Shown piece after piece: positions 708 to 56,674 of a stretch of DNA of 56,674 nt. A program made the translations under genes and the position numbers. The stretch's first letter is position 1. Each line of letters opens with the position of its first letter. This DNA comes from Limisphaerales bacterium (GTDB lineage Bacteria > Verrucomicrobiota > Verrucomicrobiia > Limisphaerales > UBA11358), in assembly GCA_003151855.1 (NCBI GenBank), contig PLYV01000161.1, positions 9,667 through 66,340 of the forward strand. The letters run 5' to 3'. The notes below the pieces were generated by a model. It saw nothing but the letters and a program-made list of their open reading frames with translations. It was not told where the DNA came from and searched no databases.

Positions 708-2852
708 ATGAGCAAGTACAAAGTGGAAGACATCCGGAACATCGCGCTCGCTGGACATGGGGCGTCGGGCAAGACCTCGCTTGCCGACGCCCTCCTGTTC
801 GCGGCCAAGGCGGTCGATCGGCACGGCAGTGTCGACGACGGAACTTCGGTCTCCGACTACGACGACGAGGAACACAAACGCCACTTCTCCATCGACACCG
901 CCGATCTGCACTTCGAGCACAAGGACGTCCACGTTCACCTTCTCGACACACCGGGTTACCCCGACTTCGTCGGCGCCGCGCTCGGCGCGATCAGCGCCGT
1001 CGAGACGGTCGTGATTACCGTGTCGGCCATCAACGGCGTGCAGGTCAATACGCGGCGCATGTTTAACGAAGCCGGGCGCCGCGGCCTGGCGCGGATGTTC
1101 GTCATTAACAAGCTCGACGGCGACAACGTCAAGTTCCTGGAGCTGCTCAAGATCATCCAGGACACGTTCGGCAAGCATTGCGTGCTGTTCAACGCCCCGA
1201 TCAACCCGGGTCCCAAGCTGAGCGGCGTCGTCAGCGTGCTGCACCCGCCGGCCTCACCGCCGGCCGGCTGTCCCGTGGACCTCGCCGCCGCCAAGGCGCA
1301 GGCAACCGATGCCGTCGTCGAGTGCGATGAAGAGCTGACCATGAAATATCTCGAAGGCGGCGTCACCGACGAGGAGATCGATGCCGTGTTGCCGCGGGCC
1401 ATCGCCGCCGGGACCGTTATTCCCATTTTCTGCACGGCCGCCAAGAAGGACATCGGTATTCCCGAGCTGATGGAGGCCCTCTGCATGGACGCTCTCTCGC
1501 CGCACCAGGGCAAGAAGCGTACCGCGCTCAAGGGCCAGGGCGATCACGCCGTCGAGGTGACGCTCAAACCCGATCCCAACGCTGAGTTCGTCGGCCAGGT
1601 CTTCAAGACGCTGACGGACAAGTTCGTCGGCAATCTGAGCTTCATCCGCGTCTACTCGGGCACCTACAAACCGGATCAGCCCCTGGTCAACGTGCGCTCC
1701 GGCAAGTCGGCCCGCACCGGCGGTATCTCGTTGATGCAGGGCAAGAGCGCGTCGCCGCTCGCCGAAGCCATCCCCGGAGACATCATTGCCGTCTCCAAGG
1801 TCGAGGACTTGCACATCGGCGATACGGTCAGCAATCACGCCGGGGCGCCGCGGTTGCCGGAACTCGCGTTCCCAGCACCGATGTTCGGTCTCGCCGTCGA
1901 GCCGAAGGCGCGCGGCGACGAGCAGAAGATCTCCGGCAGCCTGGCCAAGATCGCCAACGAGGATCCGACCTTCCAGGTGACGCGCGACGAGCAGACGCAC
2001 GAGATGGTCATCACCGGCATGAGCCAGCTACACCTGGAAGTGATGCAGCATCGGCTCAAGCGGCGCTTTGATGTGGACGTCGTCACGCACGATCCGAAGA
2101 TCCCTTACCGCGAGACGATCATGAGCAACGGCGAGGCCGAGTACCAGCACCGGAAGCAGTCCGGCGGCCGCGGCCAGTACGCCAAGGTGCTGCTCCGCGT
2201 CTATCCGCTGCCGCGCGAGATCAAGACGAAGGAAGAGTTCTTCGAGAAGTTCGCCAACAAGTCGAAGTTCGAGAAGATTCGCATCGACTCCAGCCATTAC
2301 GAGCCGGAGCACAACTTCGGTTTCATCGATCACATCGTCGGCGGCAGCATCCCGAACCAGTTCATCCCGGCCGTGGAAAAGGGGTGCAAGGAGTTGCTGG
2401 AGCGCGGCGCTCTCGCCGGCTACCGCATTCAGGACGTGGCCGTCGAGGTTCATTTCGGCAAGGCCCACGACGTTGACAGCTCGGAAGCCGCGTTCAAGAC
2501 AGCCGGCCGCCTCGCGTTCAAGAACGGCTTCCTCGCCGCCCATCCGGTGCTGCTGGAGCCGGTGGTGACGATGGAAATCACCGTGCCGTCGCAGTACACC
2601 GGCACGATCCTCGGCGACCTGAACACGAAGCGCGGCCGCATCGAGAACCAGGACAGTCTGCCCGGCGACCTGGCGGTTATCAAGGCCATCGCACCGCTGG
2701 CCGAGGTGACGCGCTACAAGGCGTCGCTGGACAGCATCACGCAGGGTCAGGGGTCGTATACGATGGAGTTCAGCCATTACGATCAGGTGCCCGGCAATGT
2801 GCAGCAGCAGATCGTGAGCAAGGCCAAGCTCGGGCCGGATGAGGACGAGTGA
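708..2852 (+). CDS. Elongation factor G-like translational GTPase
   Basis: A 714-residue protein starting at the ATG of MSKYKVEDIRN, after a GGAG-type ribosome site. The G domain shows a P-loop GHGASGKTS (residues ~17-25), LDTPGYPDF (G3) and NKLD (G4), followed by the domain II beta barrel, domain III, a domain IV segment and a C-terminal EF-G fold with the MEITVPSQYTGTILGDL stretch. Length and order fit EF-G. The P-loop (GHGASGKTS rather than GHIDAGKTT) and the short G domain are those of the EF-G2-like paralogues found beside a canonical fusA, so this may not be the main translocase. No rpsL/rpsG/tuf neighbours support that. It is followed by a hairpin at 2875-2913. Confidence 0.85.
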   Translation: MSKYKVEDIRNIALAGHGASGKTSLADALLFAAKAVDRHGSVDDGTSVSDYDDEEHKRHFSIDTADLHFEHKDVHVHLLDTPGYPDFVGAALGAISAVETVVITVSAINGVQVNTRRMFNEAGRRGLARMFVINKLDGDNVKFLELLKIIQDTFGKHCVLFNAPINPGPKLSGVVSVLHPPASPPAGCPVDLAAAKAQATDAVVECDEELTMKYLEGGVTDEEIDAVLPRAIAAGTVIPIFCTAAKKDIGIPELMEALCMDALSPHQGKKRTALKGQGDHAVEVTLKPDPNAEFVGQVFKTLTDKFVGNLSFIRVYSGTYKPDQPLVNVRSGKSARTGGISLMQGKSASPLAEAIPGDIIAVSKVEDLHIGDTVSNHAGAPRLPELAFPAPMFGLAVEPKARGDEQKISGSLAKIANEDPTFQVTRDEQTHEMVITGMSQLHLEVMQHRLKRRFDVDVVTHDPKIPYRETIMSNGEAEYQHRKQSGGRGQYAKVLLRVYPLPREIKTKEEFFEKFANKSKFEKIRIDSSHYEPEHNFGFIDHIVGGSIPNQFIPAVEKGCKELLERGALAGYRIQDVAVEVHFGKAHDVDSSEAAFKTAGRLAFKNGFLAAHPVLLEPVVTMEITVPSQYTGTILGDLNTKRGRIENQDSLPGDLAVIKAIAPLAEVTRYKASLDSITQGQGSYTMEFSHYDQVPGNVQQQIVSKAKLGPDEDE

Positions 2853-3126: not shown

Positions 3127-3598
3127 GTGTCTCACGCCAAGACATACAAAGGGGAACGCGCCCGCTGACGGCCTCAAGGTGCTGTTCATCTCTTACCTCG
3201 AACGGCACAAGGACGACCTGACCTACATCACCAACCGCTATCCCGTCGGCCCGGTCAAGGGCTTCGAGACGACCGGCGTCCTCGATCCGGCGTCGGGCAC
3301 GCGCTTCACCCTCGGCAAGACGGGCGAGTTGTACCGCGAACGCTACTGGCATTCATCAATGCTGGAGGCCGTCGCACGCTTGCGGACGTTCTTCGAGCCG
3401 CGCCGCCGCTCGCTGGTGACGGTCGCGGTGGCGTGGGTGCTGGCTCAGTCCGGCATCACGTCGGCGGTCCTCGGCGCCAGCAAGCCGGAGCAGCTCGACG
3501 CCAGCCTGGCGGCCGTCAACCTGACGCTGGATGAGGAGGAGCGCGCGGCGTGCGATCTGGCGTGGTATGGGATTCCGCGGACGGCGCCGACGCGGTGA
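3127..3598 (+). pseudogene. Aldo/keto reductase remnant
   Basis: The frame from about 3155 to 3598 encodes the C-terminal third of an aldo/keto reductase: GTRFTLGKTGELYRERYW, then AVAWVLAQSGITSAVLGAS and PEQLDASL, the region that helps bind NADP(H). The catalytic Asp-Tyr-Lys-His part of the barrel is absent. A plausible start, GTG at 3127 reading VSHAKTYKGERAR, is in another frame and meets a stop at 3166-3168, exactly where the downstream frame continues. The simplest reading is a deletion plus a one-base frameshift in a decayed gene. A short in-frame GTG at 3179 could still give a 139-residue peptide, but it would lack the active site. Confidence 0.6.
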
Positions 3599-3668: not shown

Positions 3669-3805
3669 GCTTTGCTCCTTTTTAAGTCTCTGAAACGAAA
3701 TAGGCTGATTCCGTCCTGAGCCGCTGTTGGGAAATAAGGACTTACGGCGATCCACAACGGCTCTGAAACGAAACGGGCCTTCTCGGAGTCAAAAAGGAGC
3801 AAAGC
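3669..3805. repeat. Inverted and direct repeats in a non-coding stretch
   Basis: The 3599-4060 stretch has no convincing gene. Inside it, GCTTTGCTCCTTTTT (3669-3683) is perfectly inverted as AAAAAGGAGCAAAGC (3791-3805). Between them CTCTGAAACGAAA occurs twice in direct orientation (about 3688 and 3761). This could be the edge of a small miniature element. No transposase or target duplication was seen. Confidence 0.5.
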
Positions 3806-4060
3806 CGGCGGGGGGAAGAACCCAAACTGACATGAATCGGTGTTTTTCCTAGAAAAGGCGCAGATCGGGCGCGCATTCATGTTATTTTTTACCCTGTTTC
3901 GACCGATTCGTGTCATTCGGTCCAAGATGACAAACTTGGTGATCTTTCCATTCGCTGCGAGGCGAGTCTTCCACAGAGCCGACATGGAATGACCGAATGA
4001 ACAACGACTTTCGCTCGCGGAGCGTTCAGATATCGTGGACACCGTGAGGAGGCCGAAAGT

Positions 4061-4465
4061 ATGAAGACGATAGTAGCAAGATCCGAATTGGCCACGCGCG
4101 TGGAACGCGCTCTGAAAGAACTGGCGGCCCAGGTCCAGCGCAGCGTGCCGGCCGTGCGTTGTACCGTCCAGCACGGCGGCAATGACAGTTTTCCCTGGTG
4201 GATCGTGGCCCGTTTCGCCAACGGTGCGGACGAGAGCAAAGTAGTAGACGTCTCAATCGAGTGTCGGGGGACGTCGGAGGATTGGACGATCCGAGCCGAC
4301 CTCGCGCGCGAGAATGGTTGGGTTATTCGAGAATCTTCCGCCCTCTCGTCCAGCGCGCCGGCGAATGGGGCGGAACGACCCGGCGAGCCGGAGGAGGACG
4401 GCGTGAAGCAACTCGAAGTCTTCTTGATCGAACAGGCGGATTGTCTTCGTCAGGAATTGACATGA
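4061..4465 (+). CDS. Conserved-looking hypothetical protein
   Basis: A 134-residue soluble protein with no signal peptide, preceded by a strong ribosome site (GAGGAGG about ten bases before the ATG). The first 90 residues look like a compact alpha/beta domain (SFPWWIVARFANG, VVDVSIECRG, WTIRADLARENGWVIRE). The rest is a low-complexity linker and a short helix ending in LEVFLIEQADCLRQELT. I recognise no family. It is followed by a strong hairpin and then by the convergent PRTase cassette, so it is probably monocistronic. Confidence 0.6.
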   Translation: MKTIVARSELATRVERALKELAAQVQRSVPAVRCTVQHGGNDSFPWWIVARFANGADESKVVDVSIECRGTSEDWTIRADLARENGWVIRESSALSSSAPANGAERPGEPEEDGVKQLEVFLIEQADCLRQELT

Positions 4466-4476
4466 AACGAGGAAAA

Positions 4477-4512
4477 GGGACGCGGATCATCCCCAAGAAT
4501 GATCCGCGTCCC
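4477..4512 (+). terminator. Strong hairpin after the 134-residue gene
   Basis: GGGACGCGGATCAT (4477-4490) pairs perfectly with ATGATCCGCGTCCC (4499-4512) around an eight-base loop, 11 bases after the stop. The left arm (AAAAGGGACGCGGATCAT) resembles AAAAGGGGATGCGGATTAAT at 7471-7490 on the other side of the Dam-ParB-PRTase cassette. Confidence 0.6.
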
Positions 4513-4571
4513 CATTGATTTTCCTCCACCCCGTTTTCCGCCTCTTCTTTTCTATTCTACAGGTGAGACAG

Positions 4572-5411
4572 TTACGCAGGTGGATTTGTCCTTGGAAAAA
4601 GCGGAACCCACTTATCCTTATTGTAGCTGTGCAGAATGGGGATGGTATTGTTCGGGCAATCATGGTTTAGAACAAACAGCAATCCACAATCCCCGTATCC
4701 CTTCGGCTTTTCTGGGAAGTGTTCTGTACAATACCTTAATACAATTTCTTTGTCAGAGGATGTAAAATGACAGCAGTCGTCTGAGAAGAAATTGTCCGAG
4801 CCGATCAAGTTGTAATGGGTCATGAGCTGGAGATCAGTGTTCATGCGAATCTCATCATGTGCTTGGACAGTAGCTGCCACGACCATGAGGTACACCGTGC
4901 CAACACCGCCTGCCAACTCTCGAAATAGTCCATTCCAACTTGCACATGCTTGAGTACCCGTGCCCGCAAAGTCATCGATTAGCACGACAGTGTCATTGCC
5001 GGTTAGTTTCTGTGCGGGAAGTTCATGGGCATAAACGAAGAGCGAGTTGAAATACCTCTCCCTCATACTCATCGCCTGACGGAAGCAAGCCGTCATATGG
5101 TCCCCACTCTCTCCTGGCCGTACGGCGTAGGGCACGAACCGCCACTCCCCAGTTCTACTTGTCTTGTTTCTATGCCAACCGGGCAGAGCTCGCATGAGAC
5201 TTTGAAATGCGAGTTCCATCTCCGCCCGCGTGACAAGCTGGACGGAGTCGAGAAGGCGCGCAGCCACATCCCTATCCTGTTTCTTGAACTGACCGACCCA
5301 AGCATCGATGTCTCCAGGAGTGGGCGGATGCTTGTAGTTCAAGAAGTGATTGTACCACTTCTTTTTTCGGGAGTTGTTGATCTTTGTGTCAACTGGGGCA
5401 GGCTGTTTCAT
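4572..5411 (-). CDS. PRTase-CE family phosphoribosyltransferase-like protein
   Basis: A 279-residue protein of the conflict-associated phosphoribosyltransferase-like family. The N-terminal helical part has W..QF...D...AARLL and LVTRAEMELAFQSL. The central PRPP-loop-like motif VVLIDDFAGTGTQ lies around residues 142-154. The C-terminal segment has the family's GYGDCGLLFVLNHDCPNNT followed by IPILHSY..DKWVPLFPR. It is the last gene of a three-gene operon: its ATG overlaps the stop of the ParB-like gene by four bases (ATGA). Family members are mostly seen in predicted nucleotide-centred conflict and immunity operons; the reaction is unknown. Base composition is clearly less GC-rich than the flanks, suggesting transfer. 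Confidence 0.8.
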   Translation of the reverse strand: MKQPAPVDTKINNSRKKKWYNHFLNYKHPPTPGDIDAWVGQFKKQDRDVAARLLDSVQLVTRAEMELAFQSLMRALPGWHRNKTSRTGEWRFVPYAVRPGESGDHMTACFRQAMSMRERYFNSLFVYAHELPAQKLTGNDTVVLIDDFAGTGTQACASWNGLFRELAGGVGTVYLMVVAATVQAHDEIRMNTDLQLMTHYNLIGSDNFFSDDCCHFTSSDKEIVLRYCTEHFPEKPKGYGDCGLLFVLNHDCPNNTIPILHSYNKDKWVPLFPRTNPPA

Positions 5412-6424
5412 TTTTTTGATCGCCGTCCGAGTTCTTGAAGCTTGGCTTGGATGGTTGCGGCTAGTTTCTCCAGATCTTCCCAGAGTTGCTCCTCAGCGAA
5501 AAACTCATCGATGTCGATATCCTTGATAGCTTGGCGAAGCTTGCCAACGTCTTTCGTCAAGGCCCTGACCTGTGTGGCTACGCCGACCCCTTCAATCTCA
5601 AGATGATCGACTCGGAGGTCTGGTTGTTTGGTGAACTCCTCGAGACGCTTTGATAATTGCCTCAGCTTGCCGGCTTTGTTCGCATTGCTAATGTGTTGCT
5701 TGATGATCCTGAAATCGGTAACAGCCTTCAAGCCTTTGGCTTTCTGCTTCTCTATCATTGCGTCGGTGAACTCGTCGCGGTCGAACCAGTCGAAGTTATT
5801 CACGAGGCGATCGTTCCTGATGACATACATCTCGATGAAAAAGTCTGCCTTCCATCGCTCTTCCGGGTTGGCCGTCAACATCATTTCCTGATACTTGCCG
5901 TCGTAGGACAGTAGCTTCTTACACCTCACGATCACCGCCACGTCCATGCCGGTCAGCTCGGCAAGTTTCTGGTCATTCGACTCTTGCATCTCGTCCATCA
6001 ACACCTGCATCTTGAGGGCGGTTGGCATCAACTCCCAGTCTGCTCTTAACTTGTGGATTTGGAACATCGTGATGATGTTCTGAAATGTCGATGGCTCCGC
6101 TACGATGTTGACGGGCACTTTTTGCAATTCGGCTTTTTGCGCGCAGATCCAGCGTCGCTGGCCGTCGAGGATAACGTACTTACCATTGATCCTCGCCTTC
6201 TCGTACACCGTCAACGGCACGAGAATGCCCACTTTCCTGATCGACTCTTCTAGTGTCTGCATGGGCACATCGTCGAACAGCATGCGCGGGTTGTGCGGAT
6301 TCGGCTCAAGGTCAATAATCTTGACCTCCTTGATGCCGATCAGCTGTACAGCATGTTCCTGCCTGTCGGGCTTTTCGTTCGAGGCCGCTTTCCTCTTCTG
6401 TCCCGATGGCTTTTTCATAGCCAT
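5408..6424 (-). CDS. ParB/Srx-fold protein of the Dam-PRTase cassette
   Basis: A 338-residue protein. I chose the ATG at 6424 (MAMKKPSGQKRK) because GAGGGAG stands just upstream and the methylase stop is four bases away; a longer frame reaches 6466. After a basic tail, residues ~35-110 form a ParB N-terminal (sulfiredoxin-like) domain: LEPNPHNPR, LEESIRKVGILVPLTVYE and VILDGQRRW. The last matches ParB box II, whose GERR motif binds CTP in true ParB. Next comes a helical region with an HTH-like KLAELTGMDVAVIVRCKKLL, then a charged C-terminal coiled region. No ParA partner is present. Coupling to a methylase and a PRTase argues against chromosome partitioning and for a DNA-sensing or nuclease role in a conflict system. 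Confidence 0.75.
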   Translation of the reverse strand: MAMKKPSGQKRKAASNEKPDRQEHAVQLIGIKEVKIIDLEPNPHNPRMLFDDVPMQTLEESIRKVGILVPLTVYEKARINGKYVILDGQRRWICAQKAELQKVPVNIVAEPSTFQNIITMFQIHKLRADWELMPTALKMQVLMDEMQESNDQKLAELTGMDVAVIVRCKKLLSYDGKYQEMMLTANPEERWKADFFIEMYVIRNDRLVNNFDWFDRDEFTDAMIEKQKAKGLKAVTDFRIIKQHISNANKAGKLRQLSKRLEEFTKQPDLRVDHLEIEGVGVATQVRALTKDVGKLRQAIKDIDIDEFFAEEQLWEDLEKLAATIQAKLQELGRRSKK

Positions 6425-6428
6425 ACCG

Positions 6429-7322
6429 TCACTCCCTCTTGGTGCCCCGACGGAATTCCTCGGCAATCGGCTTGTTCGAGATCAGCCATTCGTAGGCATG
6501 TCGGCGACTCCCTGTGAAGCCCGCCACGTGACGTCGTATTGGGAGACGAACTGCATTCCACTTTCGAGCGATTTCCCGTGATTCCTTGCAGTCGGCGTAA
6601 CTTACGAGAAAGTCAGCACCAGTTTGGACGATTCGCGTCAGGCTTGTGGCCATCCGTTCAATGTCAGGCGTATCGAAGAGGGTGGCCCCGTACTCGCGGA
6701 ACACCCGGCGGGATCTCACTGCGTACGGCGGATCCAAGTAGACGAAATCGCCGGACTGCACGTGCTGGAGAGTTCGCTCGAAGTCTCCTGCGATCAGCTT
6801 AGTCCGCTTTAGTAACGATGAACATAGTAGCAGGTCCGCTTTCGAGAAGTACGCACCGGGCTTGGTGCCCATTGGGACGTTAAAGTCCCCGCTCGTATTC
6901 GTTCGGTAGATGCCGTTAAAGCAGTTGCGATTCAGGTACAGGAAGCGGAGCGCGCGCGTTTCGGGATCGAGTTCGTCTTGTTGCTTGCTCCGCCATCGGT
7001 AGTACGTTGACTCATCCCGCTTAATCCGGCACAGGCGCTCATAAAGTCGGACGGGATGATCACGGACGACCCGGTATAGTTCGATCAGGCTGGCGTTCTT
7101 GTCGCCGAGGATTCCCTGATTTGGGGCGATCTCGAAGAACAGGCACGCCGAGCCTGCAAAGGGCTCGACGTACCGCTGGTGTGAATTAGTCCAGAATTGA
7201 ATCAGCCTCGGGAGTTGCTTCCGCTTGCTACCAGCCCAGCGAAGAAATGGCTTCGCCCGCTGATCTGGCCTGCTCTGCGTCGTGCGTCCGAAGTCAGATG
7301 CATGGGAGCGCGAATCGGCCAT
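6429..7322 (-). CDS. DNA adenine methylase (D12 class, Dam-like)
   Basis: A 297-residue N6-adenine methyltransferase of the Dam/DpnM type. KPFLRWAGSKRKQLPRL at residues ~24-40 and YVEPFAGSACLFFE at ~51-64 form the SAM-binding motifs. FLYLNRNCFNGIYR is the usual mid-domain segment, and VYLDPPY (DPPY catalytic motif) is near residue 200. It is the promoter-proximal gene of the three-gene cassette, four bases upstream of the ParB-like start. The role is probably to mark host DNA, as in a modification-linked defence or regulatory system. The target site cannot be read from sequence, though GATC is typical of the class. Confidence 0.88.
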   Translation of the reverse strand: MADSRSHASDFGRTTQSRPDQRAKPFLRWAGSKRKQLPRLIQFWTNSHQRYVEPFAGSACLFFEIAPNQGILGDKNASLIELYRVVRDHPVRLYERLCRIKRDESTYYRWRSKQQDELDPETRALRFLYLNRNCFNGIYRTNTSGDFNVPMGTKPGAYFSKADLLLCSSLLKRTKLIAGDFERTLQHVQSGDFVYLDPPYAVRSRRVFREYGATLFDTPDIERMATSLTRIVQTGADFLVSYADCKESREIARKWNAVRLPIRRHVAGFTGSRRHAYEWLISNKPIAEEFRRGTKRE

Positions 7323-7499
7323 AGCTGTGATCCGATACTTCGGGAAAGTAAGCGTAGATGTCCTTCTGTCCCGGCAAACGCTGCGGTGCCCGGCCCGCGA
7401 TCGGCTGCATCGCTCAAGACATCAAGAGAATAATCTATCCCGCCAAGCATGCTGAATCAATCCGGAGCAGAAAAGGGGATGCGGATTAATTTTGTCGCA

Positions 7500-8982: not shown

Positions 8983-10131
8983 TCAGATCGCACGCAGCGA
9001 TTCGACAATATCGGCGCGCGCCGCTTGCCACGCGGGGGCCATCCCGGCGACGACGCCGATAACCAGTGCGGCACCCATCCCGTGGAGCGCCAGAGTCCAC
9101 GACGGCGTGAACGCAATGGTCACGCCTTCCGTCCCGACCGCCAGCCGGCTCAGCCCGAGTGTTGTGAGCGCCGCACCCACGCCAAGCACGCCTCCTCCCA
9201 CGCCGACGATCATACTCTCGCTCAGCACGAGGCCGAAGATGCGCAAGCCCGTGAACCCCAGCGTCTGCAACACGGCATGTTCCCGAACCCGGTCCTGCAC
9301 CGCCATCAACGCAGTCGTCGAAACGATCGCCAGCACGAGACCGACACAGGCGTAACCGAGGTAGTGCGCGAAGCCGATGAGTTCCGCCAGATCGCCGACG
9401 GCATTCGCTTCGAAAACGCCTTTGGGCCGCGTGTCCGTGGCGACGGGACCGCCGTGAAATGCGGCGTCGATGGCCCGGCTCACCGCGTTGGCGTCCGCTC
9501 CCTCGGCCAGTTTGACCTCGAATTGCGTCACCGTGCCGACGGAGTTCAACCCGCGCGTCCGTTGCAAGAAGTCCAGATGAGTGTACAGGAAATTCTCCTC
9601 GGCCGGACTCGACGCCGTGAAAATGCCGGCGATGTGGACCGTCACTTCGCCGATGGCAAAACGCTGCCCAACCTTCAAGTGGCGACGATTCGCCAGCGCC
9701 TGGCCGACGAGCGCCGCATCCGGCCGTTGCTCGAATGATTGCAGGCCGCCGTCGATCACATTCATCTCGCGGAAGCGGCGCAATTTATCCGGCGGCATGC
9801 CGTGGAAGACGACGAGATCGAGACTGGCGCGACAGTTGTTCATGAACACCTTGATCGGCGTCACATCCCCAACGCCGGGAATCTCGGCGATGGTGCGCCC
9901 GTAATCTTCCGGCAGCTTGCTCGTGCTAGGACAGAAGCGATTCGTCTGAAACACGATCAAGGAGCGTTCCGCCTGTCGATTCTGCGTCAAGCGCGCCAGC
10001 CCTTCCTGGACCGCGCCGACAAAACAGAACACGAACAGCGCCACGGCCGAGCCGCTGACGGTCAGCCCGGTGCGGACGCGGTGCCGCCAGAGGCTCTTGA
10101 CGAGGTAAGGGAAGAAACGCAGCATGTTCAC
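8983..10131 (-). CDS. MacB/FtsX-type ABC transporter permease
   Basis: A 382-residue inner-membrane protein with the FtsX-like layout. One N-terminal membrane segment (residues ~20-42) is followed by a large periplasmic MacB-PCD domain (~45-260). Three C-terminal segments (~275-300, ~320-345 and ~352-375) surround [20 protein letters not shown] and end in [17 protein letters not shown]. The GTG at 10131 overlaps the stop of the ATPase gene (GTGA), with an ATG six bases inside as the alternative, so it is translationally coupled to it. With the ATPase, the HlyD-like adaptor and the second permease it should form a mechanotransmission-type exporter. The substrate is unknown. Confidence 0.85.
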
Positions 10132-45708: not shown

Positions 45709-46518
45709 TTATCGGCGTGGGGATTTAATCCTTGGCAAATGGGCCAATGGCCCGCCGTATTCATGTGAACCGGAGTTGCTTTGGGAAGCACGACTGTTTG
45801 AGTTGGGAGCAGTGCTGTTGGCTGGTGTGATTATTTGACGGAGTGCCGGATCCAGATTTCCAAAAATCTGTTCGTGTGACTGCGGTAGTTGTGACTGTGG
45901 CGGTTCTGAAGCTTGTCCCATGCTGACGGGTATTGCGCCGGTAGCCGCGCGTGCTCTTGGGACGGTGCGCTGCCTGACGGCCTCATTTAATTGTTCACCT
46001 TCAACCCGAGTATCGAGGACATCCATGAGGTGATGCCACTTCTTCCATGAAGAAACCGCTCTCTTGAAAAACAGACTCAAGGCAGACAATTGAAACCAGA
46101 TTGCCAGCGCGTCATCGTGGGAAACCAAAAGTAGTCCGACGACCAACAGGAATCCCGGCTCAAGAATCAAATCAACCACCATCGGCTTCGCACAAAAGCG
46201 ATGCCAGAACGGCCACGGAGCTCCGCTAGAATAACTGTGAACGGATGAGTTCTGCCGGCGAAGCATCGAAACGATGTGAAAACAAACCAACGCAAAGTAA
46301 CAGCCCAGATAGAAATTAAGGAATGGTGATTTGATCTGGCCAAAACATCCAACCACGGTCGCGTAGATGAAAAAAATCAGAAAGCTGACTACTATGTCAT
46401 TCATATAGCGGATGCCGAAGGTGTGACGACAAAACACCTCCGCGCTTACCGCCAGATAACGGTAGAAGACTTTAGCGCTGGCTAAAGCCCACTTTGATAT
46501 GGTTTTTATTTGTGGCAT
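45709..46518 (-). CDS. Element-encoded membrane protein
   Basis: A 269-residue protein. I chose the ATG at 46518 (MPQIKTISKWALASAKVFYR), which has GGAAGGA upstream and lies inside the end of the coupling-protein gene (47-base overlap). It has about four membrane segments (VVSFLIFFIYATVVGCFG, LNFYLGCYFALVCFHIVSML, the LEPGFLLVVGLLLV region and the following LAIWFQLSALSLFF). A cytoplasmic C-terminal part is rich in Gln, Ser, Pro and Asn. The overlap suggests partnership with the TraG/VirD4-like protein, perhaps supplying the membrane anchor that the latter lacks. Confidence 0.65.
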   Translation of the reverse strand: MPQIKTISKWALASAKVFYRYLAVSAEVFCRHTFGIRYMNDIVVSFLIFFIYATVVGCFGQIKSPFLNFYLGCYFALVCFHIVSMLRRQNSSVHSYSSGAPWPFWHRFCAKPMVVDLILEPGFLLVVGLLLVSHDDALAIWFQLSALSLFFKRAVSSWKKWHHLMDVLDTRVEGEQLNEAVRQRTVPRARAATGAIPVSMGQASEPPQSQLPQSHEQIFGNLDPALRQIITPANSTAPNSNSRASQSNSGSHEYGGPLAHLPRIKSPRR

Positions 46519-47929
46519 GCCAAATCCTTCCGCCTTGGAACGCGATTGCTTCGACGCAGTAACCATGTTCCGGCCCGCCTTTGCGCAGGCTGGTAAACTC
46601 TCCCGGCAACACCTCGGAATCGAGTGAGTCGCTGGCTCCATAATTCCGCGAAACCGTCTGACGACCGGGACTGTCCGAAGTGGATGCACTGGCGGAAGCA
46701 CGCATTTGCCAGCTCTTGGAAAAGAGATCGGAACTCCAGTTGTTTGTCAGCGTGTCTCCGTTGGCGTGAAATAATTTCGTCTGGAGATTACCCATCACGC
46801 TGTGGGTTTCAGACTGGCCGATGTGGGCATAATACGCCCCGATGTTTTGACTTAGATAAATGGTCGCGATCCGGGAACTGCGGGCGGTTGACTGAAATTC
46901 AGCGTCACGCGGCGAAACAAAAAACTGGGCTTCGTCGGCCCACAGAAAAGCAACGCGGCCATGCTTACGGACATCCCGGCGTTCGCTGGCCCGCTGCCAG
47001 ACAAACTTCATCAACATTTGGGCGAGTTGCCCCACCTCGGCGAATTCCTTGACCGGCAAATCGAGCACCAAGATTGCGCCCTCATGCGTCACCTCGGGCA
47101 CAATATTTGTGGTCGTGCAAAACAGTTCACGGAGCGCCCCACGCAAAAACAAATCCAGCATACTGGTCAGGTTGGTGACGATGATGCTGCGCGTTTTTGA
47201 TGACAGCGCGGGAAATTCCCGGAGCCAATATTTTACCGCAAGGGCAAAGTCGTTGGCCTGCCGATCCGTTTTTGGTTTGGCTTCACCTTCCTTAACGCAA
47301 CGCCAGCAAAGCGAAGATTCCTGCCACGCCGGATCATTGACTTCTTCGGGCGTGGTGGGCGCTGACACCAGCAGATCGTAAATCTCCTGCAACATCAGCC
47401 GTCCCCGGGCGATAATCATCAACTCAAAACAATTCCGCAGAAGTTGCTTGGTCGTGCGTTCCCAAAAATCGTGATTGTTGCCGCCCCGACCGCGTTCCGC
47501 GACTTCCAGCGTGCTCGAAAACAGACGCACCAAGTTTTCAGTCAGGCCGGCTCCGGCACCTGGCCGTGACAACTCGTAGCTAAGAAAATTAAATCTCCAT
47601 GGTTCGGTGGGCGAAAAAATGATAAGTGATTTCGACCGGTTTGTTTCCTGACAATAGCGCTTCCATAAAGACACCTCGTCAGTTTTGGCACAGAGCACCA
47701 ACCCGCCACAACCTGCCCGAAGCAATGATTTGGCGATAGCCGCCCCACTACCGCTGGTTTTTCCTGAACCCGTGGCACCAAAGACGGCGGTGCCTTCACA
47801 GGCATCGCGGACAGTCCATTGATCACGCGGCCCAAATTGCAAAAGGGGAACGTCTAGCTGGTCAACCGGTTTGGGGGCGGGTGTTGCAGCCGGCGGTAAT
47901 CCTGCGAGCATTTGGAAAAAGTTTTTCAT
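46472..47929 (-). CDS. Type IV coupling protein, TraG/VirD4-like
   Basis: A 485-residue P-loop ATPase of the FtsK/HerA class. Walker A is GATGSGKTSGSG (residues ~51-62), Walker B VAFLWADEAQFF near 325. Coupling-protein features follow: LSQNIGAYYAHIGQSETHSV, LQTKLFHANGDTLTNNW. Unlike VirD4 it lacks N-terminal membrane segments, so the overlapping downstream membrane protein may anchor it. It passes relaxase-bound DNA to a conjugation channel. No channel genes are present, so the element should be mobilizable and borrow a helper's secretion system. ATGA overlap with the relaxase gene. Confidence 0.85.
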   Translation of the reverse strand: MKNFFQMLAGLPPAATPAPKPVDQLDVPLLQFGPRDQWTVRDACEGTAVFGATGSGKTSGSGAAIAKSLLRAGCGGLVLCAKTDEVSLWKRYCQETNRSKSLIIFSPTEPWRFNFLSYELSRPGAGAGLTENLVRLFSSTLEVAERGRGGNNHDFWERTTKQLLRNCFELMIIARGRLMLQEIYDLLVSAPTTPEEVNDPAWQESSLCWRCVKEGEAKPKTDRQANDFALAVKYWLREFPALSSKTRSIIVTNLTSMLDLFLRGALRELFCTTTNIVPEVTHEGAILVLDLPVKEFAEVGQLAQMLMKFVWQRASERRDVRKHGRVAFLWADEAQFFVSPRDAEFQSTARSSRIATIYLSQNIGAYYAHIGQSETHSVMGNLQTKLFHANGDTLTNNWSSDLFSKSWQMRASASASTSDSPGRQTVSRNYGASDSLDSEVLPGEFTSLRKGGPEHGYCVEAIAFQGGRIWHATNKNHIKVGFSQR

Positions 47930-49089
47930 CGGTCGTTAAGGGTCATATCCATTTCAATTTCCAGACCGCGCACGCGGGTCGGTTTTGTTTTCTCAGCCCC
48001 ATTCTGTTGGCGGGCTGGAATGCCATATTTTTTCAATAACGGATTAATTTCCACTGGAGACGAAGCCGGTAGAACAGATTTCGCTGTATTCGGCAGCGCG
48101 GGAACTGCCGTTGTCATGCGTTCCAACGAACTCACTTTTTGTTCAAGATTGATTGCAAGTGTTCGATACGCCCGTTCAAACCTTGCATGCGAAGATTCAA
48201 GACTTCCACATGCTTGACGCCATCGTTCAGTTGCCTGCTCAAGTTCGCCAGCGTAACGGCAAACTGCCGGTCGCGCTCCTGATATTGGGATTCGAGCCGG
48301 TTGAGCGAATTCAGGAGATGACGTTCTAGCTCGGTCATAAATTGGAGAAAAGTTTTGTGATTCAGGAACGGGTGTGGGGTAGCGTTCTTGATGATACGCC
48401 GCCCGGCGTTCGACCAACTTTTGCAACTGCGCTTCCAGCAACCTGGCCCGTTCCGGGTTCGGCGTTCCTTTGGCTGCCCGGAGATTGATAATTTTACTGG
48501 CATCCTGCTTGGCTGCTTGAATCTTTGCCCGATGGCTGGGTTCGCGTTCTTTGCGTGCCCGCGCCGGATCGGACGGGTCGGCCAAACCATACTCCGCGTT
48601 AATTTTCGACCGGAGCGTGTCGAACAATTCGCGGGTGGATTTCCGGGGCGGAGCGATGTTGAGACTTTTGCCAGTCACCAAATCCAAGCGCGGGGTCAGG
48701 AAATGCAACTCGTGCCGGTGCGCTTTGGTATGCTGGTGCCGGACCCAAAGAATTTCATACCGGTCGGAATTCAGGCCGGCGAACGCGGCCTGCTCAAATT
48801 CGGTGATGATTTTTTCTTCCATCGCCGGAGTGATGATTTCGTTCGGGCTGAAACTCAAAACGCCGGAGGTGTATTTGTGTTTGAATTTGACGGAGTCAAT
48901 CAGTTCCTTAATCCGGTCAGGGTCACCCCGCACGACCACCGGAAACGGCTCCCGGCGGACACCCTTTTTGCCCTTACCGCCTGTCAGGTAGCCGACCGGA
49001 GCGTTGCTGACCTGAACCGTCTCGGCGGTGAGATAATCCACCGGACGGGCGGCCTTGCCAGTTCCGTGTTTTGAAAATCCGATCAACAT
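47926..49089 (-). CDS. ColE1 MbeA-type relaxase
   Basis: A 387-residue mobilization nuclease. It begins MLIGFSKHGTGKAARPVDYL like MbeA, and continues DPDRIKELIDSVKFKHKYTS, GVLSFSPNEIITPAMEEKII, then EILWVRHQHTKAHRHELHF and LTPRLDLVTGKSLNI, the metal/active region. ColE1 relaxases have an HEN motif here; the third residue is His (ELHF for ELNF), so the triad would be H-E-H. The C-terminal half is an Arg/Ala/Pro-rich coiled segment. It overlaps the MobC-like gene by seven bases upstream and the coupling-protein gene by four downstream. A second gene is nested in its 3' part. Confidence 0.85.
   Translation of the reverse strand: MLIGFSKHGTGKAARPVDYLTAETVQVSNAPVGYLTGGKGKKGVRREPFPVVVRGDPDRIKELIDSVKFKHKYTSGVLSFSPNEIITPAMEEKIITEFEQAAFAGLNSDRYEILWVRHQHTKAHRHELHFLTPRLDLVTGKSLNIAPPRKSTRELFDTLRSKINAEYGLADPSDPARARKEREPSHRAKIQAAKQDASKIINLRAAKGTPNPERARLLEAQLQKLVERRAAYHQERYPTPVPESQNFSPIYDRARTSSPEFAQPARIPISGARPAVCRYAGELEQATERWRQACGSLESSHARFERAYRTLAINLEQKVSSLERMTTAVPALPNTAKSVLPASSPVEINPLLKKYGIPARQQNGAEKTKPTRVRGLEIEMDMTLNDR
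48132..48338 (-). CDS. Nested MbeD/MobD-like mobilization protein
   Basis: A 68-residue frame lies completely inside the relaxase gene, in another frame on the same strand. It starts MTELERHLLNSLNRLESQYQ and continues RDRQFAVTLANLSRQLNDGV, a helical coiled-coil pattern with clear resemblance to MbeD/MobD (MTELE..LL.AL..L...Y). In ColE1-type plasmids mbeD (and mbeB) are nested inside mbeA in exactly this way. Function there: mobilization accessory and entry exclusion. No good ribosome site is visible upstream (CTCCAATTT), so expression is uncertain. Confidence 0.6.
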   Translation of the reverse strand: MTELERHLLNSLNRLESQYQERDRQFAVTLANLSRQLNDGVKHVEVLNLRMQGLNGRIEHLQSILNKK

Positions 49090-49394
49090 GGAATTTTGGT
49101 TTTGCTGAGCCGGTGAATGGCCCAGTTAAGCTGCCGATCGATGGTGATGAGCCAAGCCAGAATCTCGACCGCCCGGCCGGCTGGAAAATGCTTCGTCTCA
49201 CGGGCGATAAAACTTAAATTCCGGCTCAACCGGGCAAGCTCGCGCAACGCCTCCCATCGCATCTCCTTGTCACCGTGCTTGAGCAGATGACGACGAACCA
49301 AAGCGGAGACGCCGCCGACGGCCTTACCCATGCGGGTAAGGGCCGCATGTTCGGCATCATTGACTCGGATTTTGACCACCCGTTTGCGACCCAT
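49083..49394 (-). CDS. MobC/MbeC-like relaxosome accessory protein
   Basis: A 103-residue basic protein. I chose the ATG at 49394 (MGRKRVVKIRVNDAEHAALT); the open frame to 49505 runs through the candidate oriT. The pattern KIRVNDAEHAALTRMGKAVG followed by GVSALVRRHLL is a ribbon-helix-helix as in MbeC. A helical C-terminal part (LRELARLSRNLSFIARETKH, LAWLITIDRQLNWAIHRL) probably binds the relaxase. It overlaps the relaxase start by seven bases, the ColE1 order mbeC-mbeA. No strong ribosome site. Confidence 0.75.
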   Translation of the reverse strand: MGRKRVVKIRVNDAEHAALTRMGKAVGGVSALVRRHLLKHGDKEMRWEALRELARLSRNLSFIARETKHFPAGRAVEILAWLITIDRQLNWAIHRLSKTKIPC

Positions 49395-49411
49395 TTTGAA
49401 TGGTTTGACCA

Positions 49412-49456
49412 CAAGGCGCACACACACCCCGCTGTGGCCACGGCGGGGTAGCCTTG
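49412..49456. other. Candidate origin of transfer
   Basis: Just upstream of the MobC-like gene, CAAGGC (49412-49417) and GCCTTG (49451-49456) enclose ACCCCGCTGTGG / CCACGGCGGGGT, a near-perfect inverted repeat with one mismatch. It occupies the place where ColE1-type elements hold oriT. The nick site cannot be read from sequence, and the element might use another site. Confidence 0.45.
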
Positions 49457-49520
49457 TTTGGCCAAAAATATGTGACTTTTCTAACGCTTGTTTTGGGGTG
49501 GTCATATCCGGGTTTTTGTT

Positions 49521-52082: not shown

Positions 52083-55010
52083 ATGAACCAGCAAAATGCA
52101 GAGTCGACTGCTAGCGCAAAGCCACCGTCTGGCATTTCTGAAGCCAAACAAAAAGGCAGGTATTTGCGATTAACATTCAGGGGTGATTTGCTGGACCGGG
52201 TTGAATTTCGATTTGCCGAAAAATGGGTGACGCCATATTTGCAACGAGGGGATGAGCGATTCCCGCTGAACTGGCCTGATGTGGAGGTGGCTTTTAGCCT
52301 ATGCTTTCTTGATTATATTATTTGGGTGCGAAGCAAGAAATCGGGAGTGTTTCTATTCGGCGTTGAAGCAGCGGATGTTGGTTTCGCCAAACAATTGAGC
52401 AGCGCGATCTACCAGACAACCCACAAGATACACCAAGTGTTTTTTGGGGAAAACCTGAAAGGCAAAAATGAAGAAATGTTCGTCACCCACTTAATATTCC
52501 CGAAAGTTCCTGGAATTAGTAAATCTGGGAAGGGTAAGTCAACATTGGCCTTAGCTGTCAGCAATATTTTTTTACCACCAGATTGCATTGAGATATTTTG
52601 GGATTCTGAGCGCACAGGAAATTCAAAGAGAATTGACGACCTTGGGACAATTCAAGAATTGGCAAAACAGATTCGCATCTCACAAACCCCACCAATACTA
52701 TATCATGACGCCCACAACTTTTCGGGATATGCTGTAAAGGAGTCACACAATGATTTGACCAAATCAGGCGATCAAAGGACTGCGGCTCATTCAGCTTCCT
52801 GTCCCTTGCTAGATACCGCCAAAGGGCAAATTGAGCCACCGGTAGGTGATTTTGTGGGCCGGATAACCCAACAAGGTGAATTAATATCCAAAATAATCAG
52901 CGGTGCAAAGACGGAAGTCGGCATTGCGATGATTCATGGGATGCCTGGGGTTGGAAAGTCGGAAATGGCATTGATGATCGCAAAGAAATTGAAGGGAGAG
53001 TTTCCTGATGCTCAACTGTCAATCAAACTGAACGGAGATGATGATAAATCGAGCAGAACAGCCGATGCCTTAGCTTTAGCAATTAGATCCATGAAGGGAC
53101 TGGCCTTGGAACTGCCTCCTGACCTAGATTTTCTTAGGCATATTTATCTAAGTTCGCTCAATGAGACAAAATCTCTCGTTCTAGTCGATAACGCCCGAGA
53201 CACTTCTGATGTGGGATGGTTTGTTCCGCCGGATGGCTGCGCAATGATAGTCACATCGAGAGGTAAGATTCCATTGCCTCGAAATTCGAGTGTGTCTATC
53301 CATCTTGATGAACTTGAGCCGGATAAAGCCAAAGAATTGCTTGTAAGTATTTGCTCGCGAATCACTTTGCCAATCGCCGAACAGATTTGCAGGTATTGCG
53401 GTTGCCTGCCCCTGGCAATCCGTGCCGCCGGAAATTATTTAGACACAACCCCTGGAGTGATGCCATCGGAATACCTTGAATTGTTGAAAGATGAGCATCA
53501 TCGCCTTGAATTGATTGGCAACCAAGGCGTGCCAATAGGAATCGAGGCTTCCTTCAATCTTAGCTACCATCGACTGCCCGAGAAAACTGCACAAGTATTC
53601 AGATTTTTGTCCCTGTTCCACACAAGATTTGATTCGGCAGCGGAGGCAACAGTTTGCGACGATCAAAAAAACGAACATCTGCACTACTTGCATCGTCAGG
53701 CATTGGTCAATTATGAGAGCAGTTCCCGGCGATATTATCTTCACGATTTAATGAGATTGTTCGCCAGCAACTACTTTGCTCGCGAACAACAGAGCGAGGT
53801 AGCCGCCGCAAGATTTGCCGAGCATTATTTGGCGCTTTATGAAAGGGCTGAAGCGCTTTTTGATAGCGATCTCAATAATTTGAAAGCCGGAGCTAAACTA
53901 TTTGTTCAAGAGCAAACCGCAATACTGGCTGGCTGGCGATGGTGTGTTACCAAGCGAAACACCAATCCTACCGCTGCCCGCTTGTGTTGCCGTTTTGGCG
54001 AAGCCGGCGCTTACTTGTCTGGCAATTTTATCCTTCCGGCAGACCGGGTAGAATTATATGCGGCTACGCTCGATGCGGCGAGGATTTTGCGAGACACAAA
54101 GAGTGAAGTTATTGCTTTAAGACGTCTCGCCCGCGCTCACTATGACAGTGGAAAACACTTGCAGGAATCTTTGGAATTGCTTCAACAGTCTTTCAAACTA
54201 GCTGTAACAATCGGGGATGTTCAGCAGCAGGCAGTTGCACTTTCGCATCTCGGGCGCGTCGAAATGCGTGAACGTAAAATAAAAGATGCGCTGCGAACGC
54301 ATATCCATGCGGTCCATCTCGCAAGAATTTCAAACGACCTTGATTCACAAATGGTATCGCTTGGCCACCTGGGGTCGACATACACTGACCTAGGCGAATC
54401 GCCACAGGCAATTTGCTGTTACAATGCTTCGCTAAAATTGGCGCGGCGTTTAAGAAAATCACGAAACGAGGCGATCGCGCTAGGTGGTCTAGGTAGAGCT
54501 TACGACAAAACCGACAAACCGAAGGCACTAAAATATTTCGAGGATTGTCTGAAGCTCGCTAAAGAGATTGATGATCTTAAAACGGTTAATACCGTGACAC
54601 TTAATCTCGGCAGATATTTTCTCCAAACTGATCCCAAACGAGCATTAAAATATTTCCAACGCTCGCTGGAATTGAATCGAGAGCAAGGCAATCGCAAAAG
54701 GGAGGGCGGCGCATTGTATGATTCGGGTTTGGCACTGAAGGCCATGGGCGATAAAGATGATGCGATAAGGGCATTCTCCGAATCGCTTAGAATTGCGCGT
54801 GATGCTTTAGACTACATTGGCGAGGGAAAAGCGTTGGAGCAATTGTGTTACATTTACGGTAAATCTCCGGCTACAACGTATCGCGCGTTGATACTCGGCG
54901 AAGCGGCTGTCAGGATCTATCAAAAGAAAGCGCAAACATGGGTTTATAGGTTGCAGCCAAAAATTAAAAACTGGCGGCAGACTTTGAAACGCCCAAGCAA
55001 GCGACTATAA
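52083..55010 (+). CDS. NB-ARC/TPR STAND protein with an unknown N-terminal domain
   Basis: A 975-residue signalling ATPase. Residues ~1-250 form an unknown domain (YLRLTFRGDLLDRVEFRFAE, VRSKKSGVFLFGVEAADVGF). NB-ARC follows at ~265-500: Walker A MIHGMPGVGKSE (~281-292), Walker B KSLVLVDNARD, sensor CAMIVTSRGKIPL, and the CGCLPLAIRAAG loop. A winged-helix part (NLSYHRLPEKTAQVFRFLSL) precedes a TPR array from ~690 to 960 (ALSHLGRVEMRERKIKDALR, ALKYFEDCLKLAKEIDDLKT, KALKYFQRSLELNREQGNRK). Such NLR-like proteins sense phage or nucleic acids and trigger the N-terminal effector. The gene is AT-richer than its neighbours and runs opposite to them, which supports cargo acquisition. Confidence 0.85.
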   Translation: MNQQNAESTASAKPPSGISEAKQKGRYLRLTFRGDLLDRVEFRFAEKWVTPYLQRGDERFPLNWPDVEVAFSLCFLDYIIWVRSKKSGVFLFGVEAADVGFAKQLSSAIYQTTHKIHQVFFGENLKGKNEEMFVTHLIFPKVPGISKSGKGKSTLALAVSNIFLPPDCIEIFWDSERTGNSKRIDDLGTIQELAKQIRISQTPPILYHDAHNFSGYAVKESHNDLTKSGDQRTAAHSASCPLLDTAKGQIEPPVGDFVGRITQQGELISKIISGAKTEVGIAMIHGMPGVGKSEMALMIAKKLKGEFPDAQLSIKLNGDDDKSSRTADALALAIRSMKGLALELPPDLDFLRHIYLSSLNETKSLVLVDNARDTSDVGWFVPPDGCAMIVTSRGKIPLPRNSSVSIHLDELEPDKAKELLVSICSRITLPIAEQICRYCGCLPLAIRAAGNYLDTTPGVMPSEYLELLKDEHHRLELIGNQGVPIGIEASFNLSYHRLPEKTAQVFRFLSLFHTRFDSAAEATVCDDQKNEHLHYLHRQALVNYESSSRRYYLHDLMRLFASNYFAREQQSEVAAARFAEHYLALYERAEALFDSDLNNLKAGAKLFVQEQTAILAGWRWCVTKRNTNPTAARLCCRFGEAGAYLSGNFILPADRVELYAATLDAARILRDTKSEVIALRRLARAHYDSGKHLQESLELLQQSFKLAVTIGDVQQQAVALSHLGRVEMRERKIKDALRTHIHAVHLARISNDLDSQMVSLGHLGSTYTDLGESPQAICCYNASLKLARRLRKSRNEAIALGGLGRAYDKTDKPKALKYFEDCLKLAKEIDDLKTVNTVTLNLGRYFLQTDPKRALKYFQRSLELNREQGNRKREGGALYDSGLALKAMGDKDDAIRAFSESLRIARDALDYIGEGKALEQLCYIYGKSPATTYRALILGEAAVRIYQKKAQTWVYRLQPKIKNWRQTLKRPSKRL

Positions 55011-55242: not shown

Positions 55243-56674
55243 ATGAAAAATAAATCCTACCTCAATCGGCTCCATTGCAAACAATCGGGTCGTTTCATCG
55301 CAGTCCCCAATGCCGTCATCAATGACTTTATGGTCTGGTGTCGTCAGCGCGGGGTCTCGGCAATTAAAGTTCACAGATATTGTGACCATCTGCGGCGACT
55401 GCATCCGCGATTTCGATGGCGGCAGAAAGCAAACCTGCTCGACCTCACCGTGGACGACTTGGACGACATCCAGCGCTTCTGTCGTCTTCGGTCTCCATCG
55501 CTTGCACGCGGGATTGCTGTGTTTAGATCGTTTTTGCAAAGCACGGATCGCTTGGCTCCGAGCGAACCCGTTCGCGTGGTCAAGCCCCGCAGTTATCGAA
55601 GGTATCGGCGAGTGCCGATTTTCGGCCCCATCGTTGATGACTTCGTTAAATGGTCTATGGGCCGCAAGTCGTCCCCCAGCACGATCCGAATGCACTTGCA
55701 GGTTTTAGGCTGTCTCGCACCCCGATTTATCCTTCTGGGCAAGCGAACTTGTCGTGATTTTGATCGCGATGATTTTAGGCGGGCACGGCAGGTCTTCCAT
55801 GCACGCAAGCCACGCTGGATGCCTGGCATCGTGCGTTTGGAGGACTATTTGGAAGCGCGTGGCTGGCTGAAGCACGACCGTTGCAACCAGCGTCGAACAC
55901 TTTCCGAAAACATCCTCAAGAGATTCAGCGAGCATTTGAAAAGGGATCGTGGTCTGGCGGAGAGCACGATTCAGGGCCATGACAAGTATTTGCGCCGATT
56001 TCTCACGTTCACTGGTGTTGATCAAGGCATGGCAAGATTGCGTGAGCTGAAGCTGGCTAAAGTGCAGCGTTTTCTGCGGCAAGCTTCACAGCGTTGCTCG
56101 CGCCGGACCATGAAAGGCGTAGTGGGCATGGTCCGGGGGTTTCTACGTTTCCAATACATGAAGGGTGTCCTGCGTCAACCGTTGCACACACAGATCGATT
56201 CCGTTCGGGTTTATCGGGAAGAACTGTTGCCCCATCCCTTGCCTTGGTTGGAACTTCAGAAGTTGCTAAAACGCATGGATCGTTCCACTCCTCTGGGTTC
56301 GCGCGATTTTACGATTTTACTGCTCGCGGCTTCATACGGCCTTCGGCGGTCGGAGGTCGCGGCGTTGACGCTTGATAGCATCGACTGGCGAAAACGCACC
56401 CTGCATATTTTCCAGCCCAAGACCCGGCAGACACTGGCTCTGCCAATCACTGCCCCGATTGGCAGGGCCTTGGTGGACTACTTGCGCAAGGGGCGTCCAG
56501 CCTCGGAAGCGCGTCAGTTGTTTCTACGACAGCGCGCTCCTGCCGGCCCCCTTGCGGCTCCGGGTGTAGCTTGTGCGTTGGCGCGTGCCGTCCGTTCCAC
56601 CGGAGTGAAGATTGAGACTACGAGTTTCCACGGTTTGCGGCACGCCTTCGCGTTGCGACTTCTTCGTCAGGACA
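55243..56674 (+). CDS. Tyrosine recombinase/integrase, 3'-truncated by the window
   Basis: An ATG at 55243 opens a frame without stop to the last base (477 codons). It begins MKNKSYLNRLHCKQSGRFIA. Residues ~225-330 are a core-binding SAM-like domain (SENILKRFSEHLKRDRGLAE, STIQGHDKYLRRFL). The catalytic part shows the first Arg in ASYGLRRSEVAALTLDSIDW and the HxxR in SFHGLRHAFALRLL. The last His and Tyr lie beyond the window. The extra ~200 N-terminal residues (a duplicated core-like module, PNAVINDFMVWCRQRG) resemble recombinases that act in pairs or trios. It may mobilise the whole element or belong to a second one. Confidence 0.85.
   Translation, partial: MKNKSYLNRLHCKQSGRFIAVPNAVINDFMVWCRQRGVSAIKVHRYCDHLRRLHPRFRWRQKANLLDLTVDDLDDIQRFCRLRSPSLARGIAVFRSFLQSTDRLAPSEPVRVVKPRSYRRYRRVPIFGPIVDDFVKWSMGRKSSPSTIRMHLQVLGCLAPRFILLGKRTCRDFDRDDFRRARQVFHARKPRWMPGIVRLEDYLEARGWLKHDRCNQRRTLSENILKRFSEHLKRDRGLAESTIQGHDKYLRRFLTFTGVDQGMARLRELKLAKVQRFLRQASQRCSRRTMKGVVGMVRGFLRFQYMKGVLRQPLHTQIDSVRVYREELLPHPLPWLELQKLLKRMDRSTPLGSRDFTILLLAASYGLRRSEVAALTLDSIDWRKRTLHIFQPKTRQTLALPITAPIGRALVDYLRKGRPASEARQLFLRQRAPAGPLAAPGVACALARAVRSTGVKIETTSFHGLRHAFALRLLRQD

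Follow-up and report, generated by a model that had tools for sequence, protein, structure and literature searches.

Here we describe a three-gene cassette in a 56,674-nucleotide stretch of DNA from a Limisphaerales bacterium of the phylum Verrucomicrobiota (contig PLYV01000161.1; the whole stretch is called the window, and positions are counted within it). The cassette encodes a DNA adenine methylase (Dam), a ParB-like protein and a phosphoribosyltransferase-like protein of the PRTase-CE family, and it belongs to a set of loci in which one type of ParB-like protein is kept beside a DNA methyltransferase while the third gene is exchanged. Because the same ParB type stands beside a methylase with differing third genes, we lean, with slightly more confidence than doubt, toward reading the cassette as a modular system, akin to restriction-modification (R-M), that would discriminate self from nonself DNA of phages or plasmids and act through a non-nuclease abortive-infection effector.

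All three genes lie on the minus strand, from 7322 down to 4572, with the spacing of an operon, in a 3.8-Mb draft genome of 331 contigs that is 70% complete. First comes dam (6429–7322), which encodes a D12-class DNA adenine-N6 methyltransferase of 297 amino acids (aa). It is followed by the ParB-like gene (5408–6424), whose ATG at 6424 lies four bases past the dam stop and gives a protein of ∼338 aa with a ParB_N domain, a helix-turn-helix (HTH) region and a coiled C terminus; the mechanical open reading frame (ORF) call, 5408–6466, starts from a TTG at 6466 and gives 352 aa. The last gene encodes the 279-aa PRTase-CE protein (4572–5411), the putative effector, and its start overlaps the parB stop as ATGA. 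GC content is 0.530 in the cassette and 0.632 in the flanks, and chromosomal genes lie on both sides. An earlier note on this DNA had described the common strand, the four-base gap, the ATGA overlap and the lower GC content, all of which we confirm at these positions, and the motifs that it named, DPPY, DDFAGTG and GQRR (here within DGQRR), are each present. For all three proteins, the family matches exceed the curated cut-offs.

To place the cassette in a broader perspective, we defined an MTase-ParB-X family of loci, in which a ParB-like protein with the motif MFxIHxxRxxW lies beside, or is clustered with, a DNA methyltransferase (MTase) and is accompanied by one further gene. Our searches of genomes drew on overlapping samples from a single phylum (1,980 look-ups, repeats included) and reached other phyla through plasmid, phage and viral collections only; draft genomes may be incomplete or misbinned, and counts are small. 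The family has seven members, namely, the window and loci L147, L154, L066, L067, L068 and L097. The Dam-ParB-PRTase arrangement of the window recurs with its gene order kept in L147, from a genome of the same taxonomic order but another family, where it occupies another chromosomal site with other flanking genes and shows 50% identity for ParB, 44% for PRTase and 41% for Dam. L154 combines ParB and PRTase with a convergent methylase of another class (N6_N4); L066, L067 and L097 consist of a D12 methylase, ParB and a third gene of one new family; and L068 has Dam, ParB and an unrelated third gene. L097 is a viral contig whose cassette lies beside a phage integrase, and a type III R-M locus lies immediately next to L066. 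A DNA methyltransferase adjoins ParB in all seven loci, gene gaps across the cassettes range from −38 to +29 bp, and AT content exceeds that of the flanks in every case. By comparison, 34 housekeeping ParB loci contain no relative of Dam, PRTase or the third gene within ∼1.5 kb, and among 40 other viral-contig loci with a match to either ParB or Dam, a single one (L105) has both, ∼2.8 kb apart. The earlier note had staked its reading on co-location of homologues in other genomes; such co-location exists, as the trio in L147 and as ParB-PRTase with another methylase in L154. That reading stands in part; the swapping of the third gene between loci and the recurrent partners of the PRTase had escaped it.

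The ParB-like proteins form a subfamily whose sequences set it apart from housekeeping ParBs. The window protein matches PF02195 (E = 2.4e-15) and, over residues 45–195, TIGR00180 above its cut-off, and the ParB-like profile A4 matches solved structures of ParB/Noc CTP hydrolases (CTPases) with 80 bits over the nucleotide-binding and HTH regions. It carries DGQRRW in place of GERRxR and MFQIHKLRADW where ParB CTPases have ENxQRxDL. MFxIHxxRxxW replaces ENxQRxDL in 7/7 subfamily members, with D-G-(E/Q)-R-R-W retained; ENLQRxDL is present in three of the four housekeeping ParBs compared. Full-length matches within the subfamily score 300 to 487 bits (profile A1), compared to 82 bits for the best housekeeping-type match, and the wider profile A4 gives the L154 protein 252 bits. 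No adjacent parA was recognized in the ORF listings beside any of the seven cassettes. Given the replaced ENxQRxDL box and the absence of an adjoining parA, the protein has a ParB fold yet is probably no partition CTPase, and its sequence favors a sensor or switch role.

These features bear directly on the possibility that the cassette is ordinary phage or plasmid maintenance cargo, that is, an orphan Dam, a partition ParB and a passenger enzyme. Dam does match the phage methyltransferase family phrog_56, the ParB-like protein matches phage ParBs, and the viral contig L097 carries an integrase. Yet the missing ParA and CTPase box argue against such an origin, as do the housekeeping loci (Dam near none of the 34) and the viral contigs (one other ParB locus with Dam); neither 50,697 phage records nor PHROGs contain a match to PRTase-CE, the window cassette sits among chromosomal genes, and the ParA or replication-gene neighbors that this explanation predicts failed to appear in the seven loci seen. 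We therefore regard it as very unlikely. A classical restriction system, in which the ParB-like protein would act as a nuclease on unmethylated DNA, with the PRTase serving for backup or repair, strikes us as highly improbable. It could draw on the nuclease activity of some ParB/Srx-fold proteins (cited in PMC12839542), but the protein carries no fused nuclease domain, HNH or other, its match is to CTPase-type ParB/Noc structures, and in the relatives the putative effector motifs sit in the exchangeable gene, not in ParB. Of the two activities that the earlier note offered for the ParB-like protein, sensing DNA or cutting it, the second thus found no support.

Two relatives extend the range of the subfamily. 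The L154 ParB (1694–2848, plus strand) bears an N-terminal extension with a weak, below-cut-off match to DpnI_C (E = 0.0076), a Dam-replacing winged-helix domain, and this extension is possibly a methyl-DNA reader fused to ParB. In L150 (6420–9008, minus strand), a partial relative (G277, 119 bits) is followed by a 507-aa protein, with no Dam relative adjoining; on account of the partial match and the lack of an adjoining Dam we left it out of the family, and the locus is possibly a more distant variant.

The third genes of the seven loci fall into PRTase-CE (three loci), a family with the motif RNxxSHxPK (L066, L067 and L097) and one unrelated gene (L068). The RNxxSHxPK motif, of the HEPN type R-x4-H, is invariant near the C terminus of its three members. 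A HEPN identity was not upheld, resting on the motif with no HEPN match from the structural model (pLDDT 67), whose N-terminal part weakly resembles restriction endonuclease-like proteins (YaeQ, Bax1; best E = 5.8e-3). The L068 third gene has no family or structure match; a PD-(D/E)XK-like stretch seen by eye makes its product a possible nuclease by motif. We treat these features of both types as hints. An alignment scan of viral contigs with the third-gene family (A6) retrieved no relatives.

In the ParB tree, a branch separates the ParBs paired with PRTase from the rest in 85% of bootstrap trees, and those paired with the X1 effector are set apart likewise in 94%, so that ParB type and effector type go together. 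The Dams of the two PRTase cassettes, in contrast, are 41% identical to each other and 40 to 50% identical to those of the other cassettes and are thus no closer mutually. Such a pattern would follow from direct contact between ParB and the effector, with the role of the methylase confined to providing a mark; with seven ParBs and five Dams, the sample is small, and the pairing is suggestive rather than proof. The methylase, too, is exchanged. Directly 3′ of the L147 PRTase lies a 93-aa N-terminal remnant of an N6_N4 methylase (9876–10124, minus strand), 70% identical to its L154 homologue, which is intact at the same convergent position (3683–4900, minus strand). Two histories could account for this: Dam took the place of the earlier methylase, or two different ParB-PRTase cassettes came to lie next to one and the same methylase gene. 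Both imply exchange around a methylase.

The window PRTase-CE protein is well assigned to its family (PF24390, E = 1.1e-42; 147 bits, cut-off 27), and its loop motif for phosphoribosyl pyrophosphate (PRPP), VVLIDDFAGTGTQ (IDDFAGTGT), is intact. Its AlphaFold model (pLDDT 82) has the type I PRTase fold, with matches to UPRT, OPRT and HGPRT in the PDB (E = 1.7e-5, probability 1.00). It matches the PRTase_III-A models of PADLOC (E = 1.4e-28), which classes relatives as retron III-A effectors, and a distant antiphage relative in NCBIfam, DS32_1, is matched with 18.9 bits against a cut-off of 250. No reverse transcriptase occurs among the three cassette genes and the neighboring ORFs, and we accordingly rejected membership in retron type III-A. 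An alignment scan of viral contigs with the PRTase (A7) found no relatives, nor did single-protein scans of genome contigs with the PRTase and with ParB. The role of effector that the earlier note gave to the PRTase gains support from the retron III-A match, the type I fold and precedent in the literature.

Elsewhere in the phylum and on rhizobial plasmids, PRTase-CE usually occurs with a C5, N6 or N4/N6 methylase and an ORC/CDC6-like ATPase (L034 to L036 and L042 to L045); ParB in the window thus takes the position that ORC/CDC6 has in those loci. Clusters of MTase, PRTase-CE, ORC/CDC6-like ATPase and a gene of unknown function were seen in L035 (8203–10460), L036 (6357–8635) and L042 to L045, and those on rhizobial plasmids often adjoin thyX. 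In L031 and L033, PRTase-CE lies beside HsdM, HsdS or DUF1156 and NADAR genes; the NADAR that follows it is fused to a type I HsdS in L031 (8180–11304) and to a DUF1156 protein in L033 (7766–12653). Exceptions are L039, with ORC only, and L037 and L038, with longer proteins and no methylase seen nearby.

On the modification side, Dam matches PF02086 (E = 1.5e-44) and TIGR00571 (203 bits, cut-off 115) and carries the DPPY catalytic motif; its closest solved structures are DpnM (2dpm, 3.8e-39) and E. coli Dam (4rtj). Aligned to E. coli Dam, it keeps the R124 and P134 positions and has I for L122, R for K9 and K for Y138; we take these five positions to bear on GATC specificity. A marking of self DNA by this enzyme is plausible. 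A weak match to PD-lambda-5 was discarded, that system being a compacted R-M plus abortive-infection (Abi) prophage system whose main text mentions no ParB. As no nuclease family is matched among the three cassette genes, the cassette is not a type II R-M system; the PRTase occupies the place of the cognate restriction nuclease.

From these elements, we propose the following mechanism for the modular system. Dam, judging from its family, would methylate adenine at sites across the host genome, its target being short and probably GATC-like. The ParB-like protein, combining the ParB nucleotide-binding fold and an HTH with the lack of a standard CTP-hydrolysis box, would bind DNA in a mark-dependent manner and keep the effector inactive as long as the DNA is marked. 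Unmarked incoming DNA would release or load ParB and thereby switch on PRTase-CE, which would act on PRPP and a second compound (a base, a nucleotide or something related), disturb nucleotide metabolism and halt the infected cell. The operon and its recurrence, the exchange of methylase and third gene, and the folds and motifs of the enzymes are observed; methylation reading, activation, toxicity and defense we infer.

The main rival is a toxin-antitoxin or addiction module in which the PRTase is the toxin, ParB both repressor and antitoxin, and Dam an epigenetic timer of expression, the whole maintaining itself or a mobile element. Overlapping genes, the terminal position of the effector gene and the low GC content agree with it, and so do the HTH and KorB-like matches of ParB, the exchange of third genes together with the ParB-effector pairing, and the integrase beside L097. 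However, a methylase, of two classes, is kept in all seven loci, beyond what a two-component toxin-antitoxin system needs, and R-M genes recur beside PRTase-CE; such a module would, moreover, overlap strongly with defense in practice. We consider it unlikely, though deserving of serious attention. Several points weigh against the R-M-like system that we favor: (i) the exact Dam-ParB-PRTase trio is found in two genomes only, L154 being divergent; (ii) no defense island was found around the window copy; (iii) a KorB-like repressor role would fit the ParB sequence too; and (iv) the model assumes that the ParB site overlaps the Dam site.

A literature search, which covered few subscription papers, found no described system with this trio. 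Related methylase-ParB-effector operons are on record: a 2013 table has an entry for the HEPN family MAE_28990, whose gene shares an operon with those for ParB and a DNA methylase (Anantharaman et al. 2013, PMC3710099). Like the cassette, these operons join a DNA methylase, a ParB gene and a predicted effector, but the effector there is a HEPN RNase, given in one table line without experiment, rather than PRTase-CE. The corresponding PF18737 (HEPN_MAE_28990) went unmatched both in 165 genomes of the phylum and in 14 control genomes, which makes the search uninformative. PRTase effectors are also known, from retrons and from the DprA-PRTase system of P2-like phages, which protects E. coli from T7 and lambda and whose authors propose that DNA sensing triggers a suicidal PRTase (Rousset et al. 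2022, PMC9122126). That system shares a DNA-binding protein and a PRTase with the cassette, but its sensor is DprA and no methylase is described, in contrast to ParB and the methylase here. Retron type III-A, made up of a PRTase, a winged-helix protein and a reverse transcriptase (PMC12548924), has a PRTase whose models match that of the cassette, whereas the cassette has ParB as the sensor, a methylase and no reverse transcriptase. The same PRTase-CE family occurs in the loci that pair PF24390 with PF24389, a putative DNA-binding NTPase, beside a methyltransferase; they differ in having the ORC/CDC6-like ATPase and an extra gene instead of ParB, with C5, N6 or N4/N6 methylases. Finally, the Ssp and Dnd systems (SspE, DndI; PMC13251355, PMC11662687) likewise link a ParB-superfamily domain to a DNA-modification module, and in SspE this domain, with its DGQQR motif, is the sensor of DNA modification that licenses the nuclease (PMC13251355), a precedent for the reader role proposed for ParB; they use phosphorothioation and an HNH nuclease fused to the sensor, where the cassette has methylation and a separate PRTase. 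What is new here is the Dam-ParB-PRTase combination, the methylase-tied ParB subfamily without the CTPase box and the effector swapping behind ParB.

The cassette ends carry a repeated motif that the earlier note had already pointed out and that proved real and unusual: GGGGAYGCGGATYA has exactly two copies in the 3.8 Mb of the genome, one per cassette end, and zero occurrences in shuffles of the window. The right copy, AAAAGGGGATGCGGATTAAT (7471–7490, plus strand), precedes dam by ∼150 bp. At the left end, the motif forms an arm of a perfect 14-bp hairpin (4477–4512, minus strand; minimum free energy −40.3 kcal/mol, z = −6.5; GATC within each arm), which lies 60 nt past the PRTase stop, runs into TTTT on the operon strand and is probably an intrinsic terminator, so this copy may simply belong to the terminator. 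The motif is not a genus-wide dispersed repeat, as 30 other genomes of the genus contain it once at most, and no matching pair was found around related cassettes, which led us to reject a conserved ParB operator. A search for an empty site via the flanking 3-keto-disaccharide hydrolase gave no clear orthologous site (≤48% identity). The motif may be an insertion footprint, an operator or a chance reuse of the terminator arm.

As for the surroundings, the stranded gene fragment reported just outside the cassette exists, as the C-terminal end of an aldo/keto reductase (3179–3598, plus strand; 71 of 291 profile positions), but it lies ∼870 bp beyond the left cassette end rather than directly adjacent. 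Between the two is a 134-aa ORF (4061–4465, plus strand) with no Pfam or NCBIfam match. Farther along the window, a TraG/TraD-like coupling protein, a MobA/VirD2-like relaxase, a small MobC-like ORF and a tyrosine integrase (46472–49505, minus strand, and 55243–56673, plus strand) make up an apparent integrative mobilizable element, and the integrase is adjoined by an NB-ARC plus TPR (STAND-type) protein (52083–55010, plus strand), a candidate conflict gene.

R-M systems are usually conceived as marking self and cutting nonself. In the loci described here, the marking enzyme is retained, while the cutter appears to have given way to exchangeable effectors, with a single conserved ParB-like protein as the reader. 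More tentatively, we raise the possibility of a new R-M class, in which a ParB without the CTPase box would read methylation and relay it to interchangeable, mostly non-DNase effectors (PRTase-CE, HEPN-like and others), so that unmethylated DNA would lead to metabolic shutdown instead of cleavage; PRTase-CE would then be a general effector for systems gated by methylation, with ParB and ORC/CDC6 as alternative readers. The MFxIHxxRxxW motif offers a means of finding further members among proteins annotated as partition ParBs. If our reading is true, the cassette would provide a minimal, testable system for the reading of DNA methylation by a ParB fold and a route to the substrate of PRTase effectors that are found also in retrons and other methylase-linked loci.

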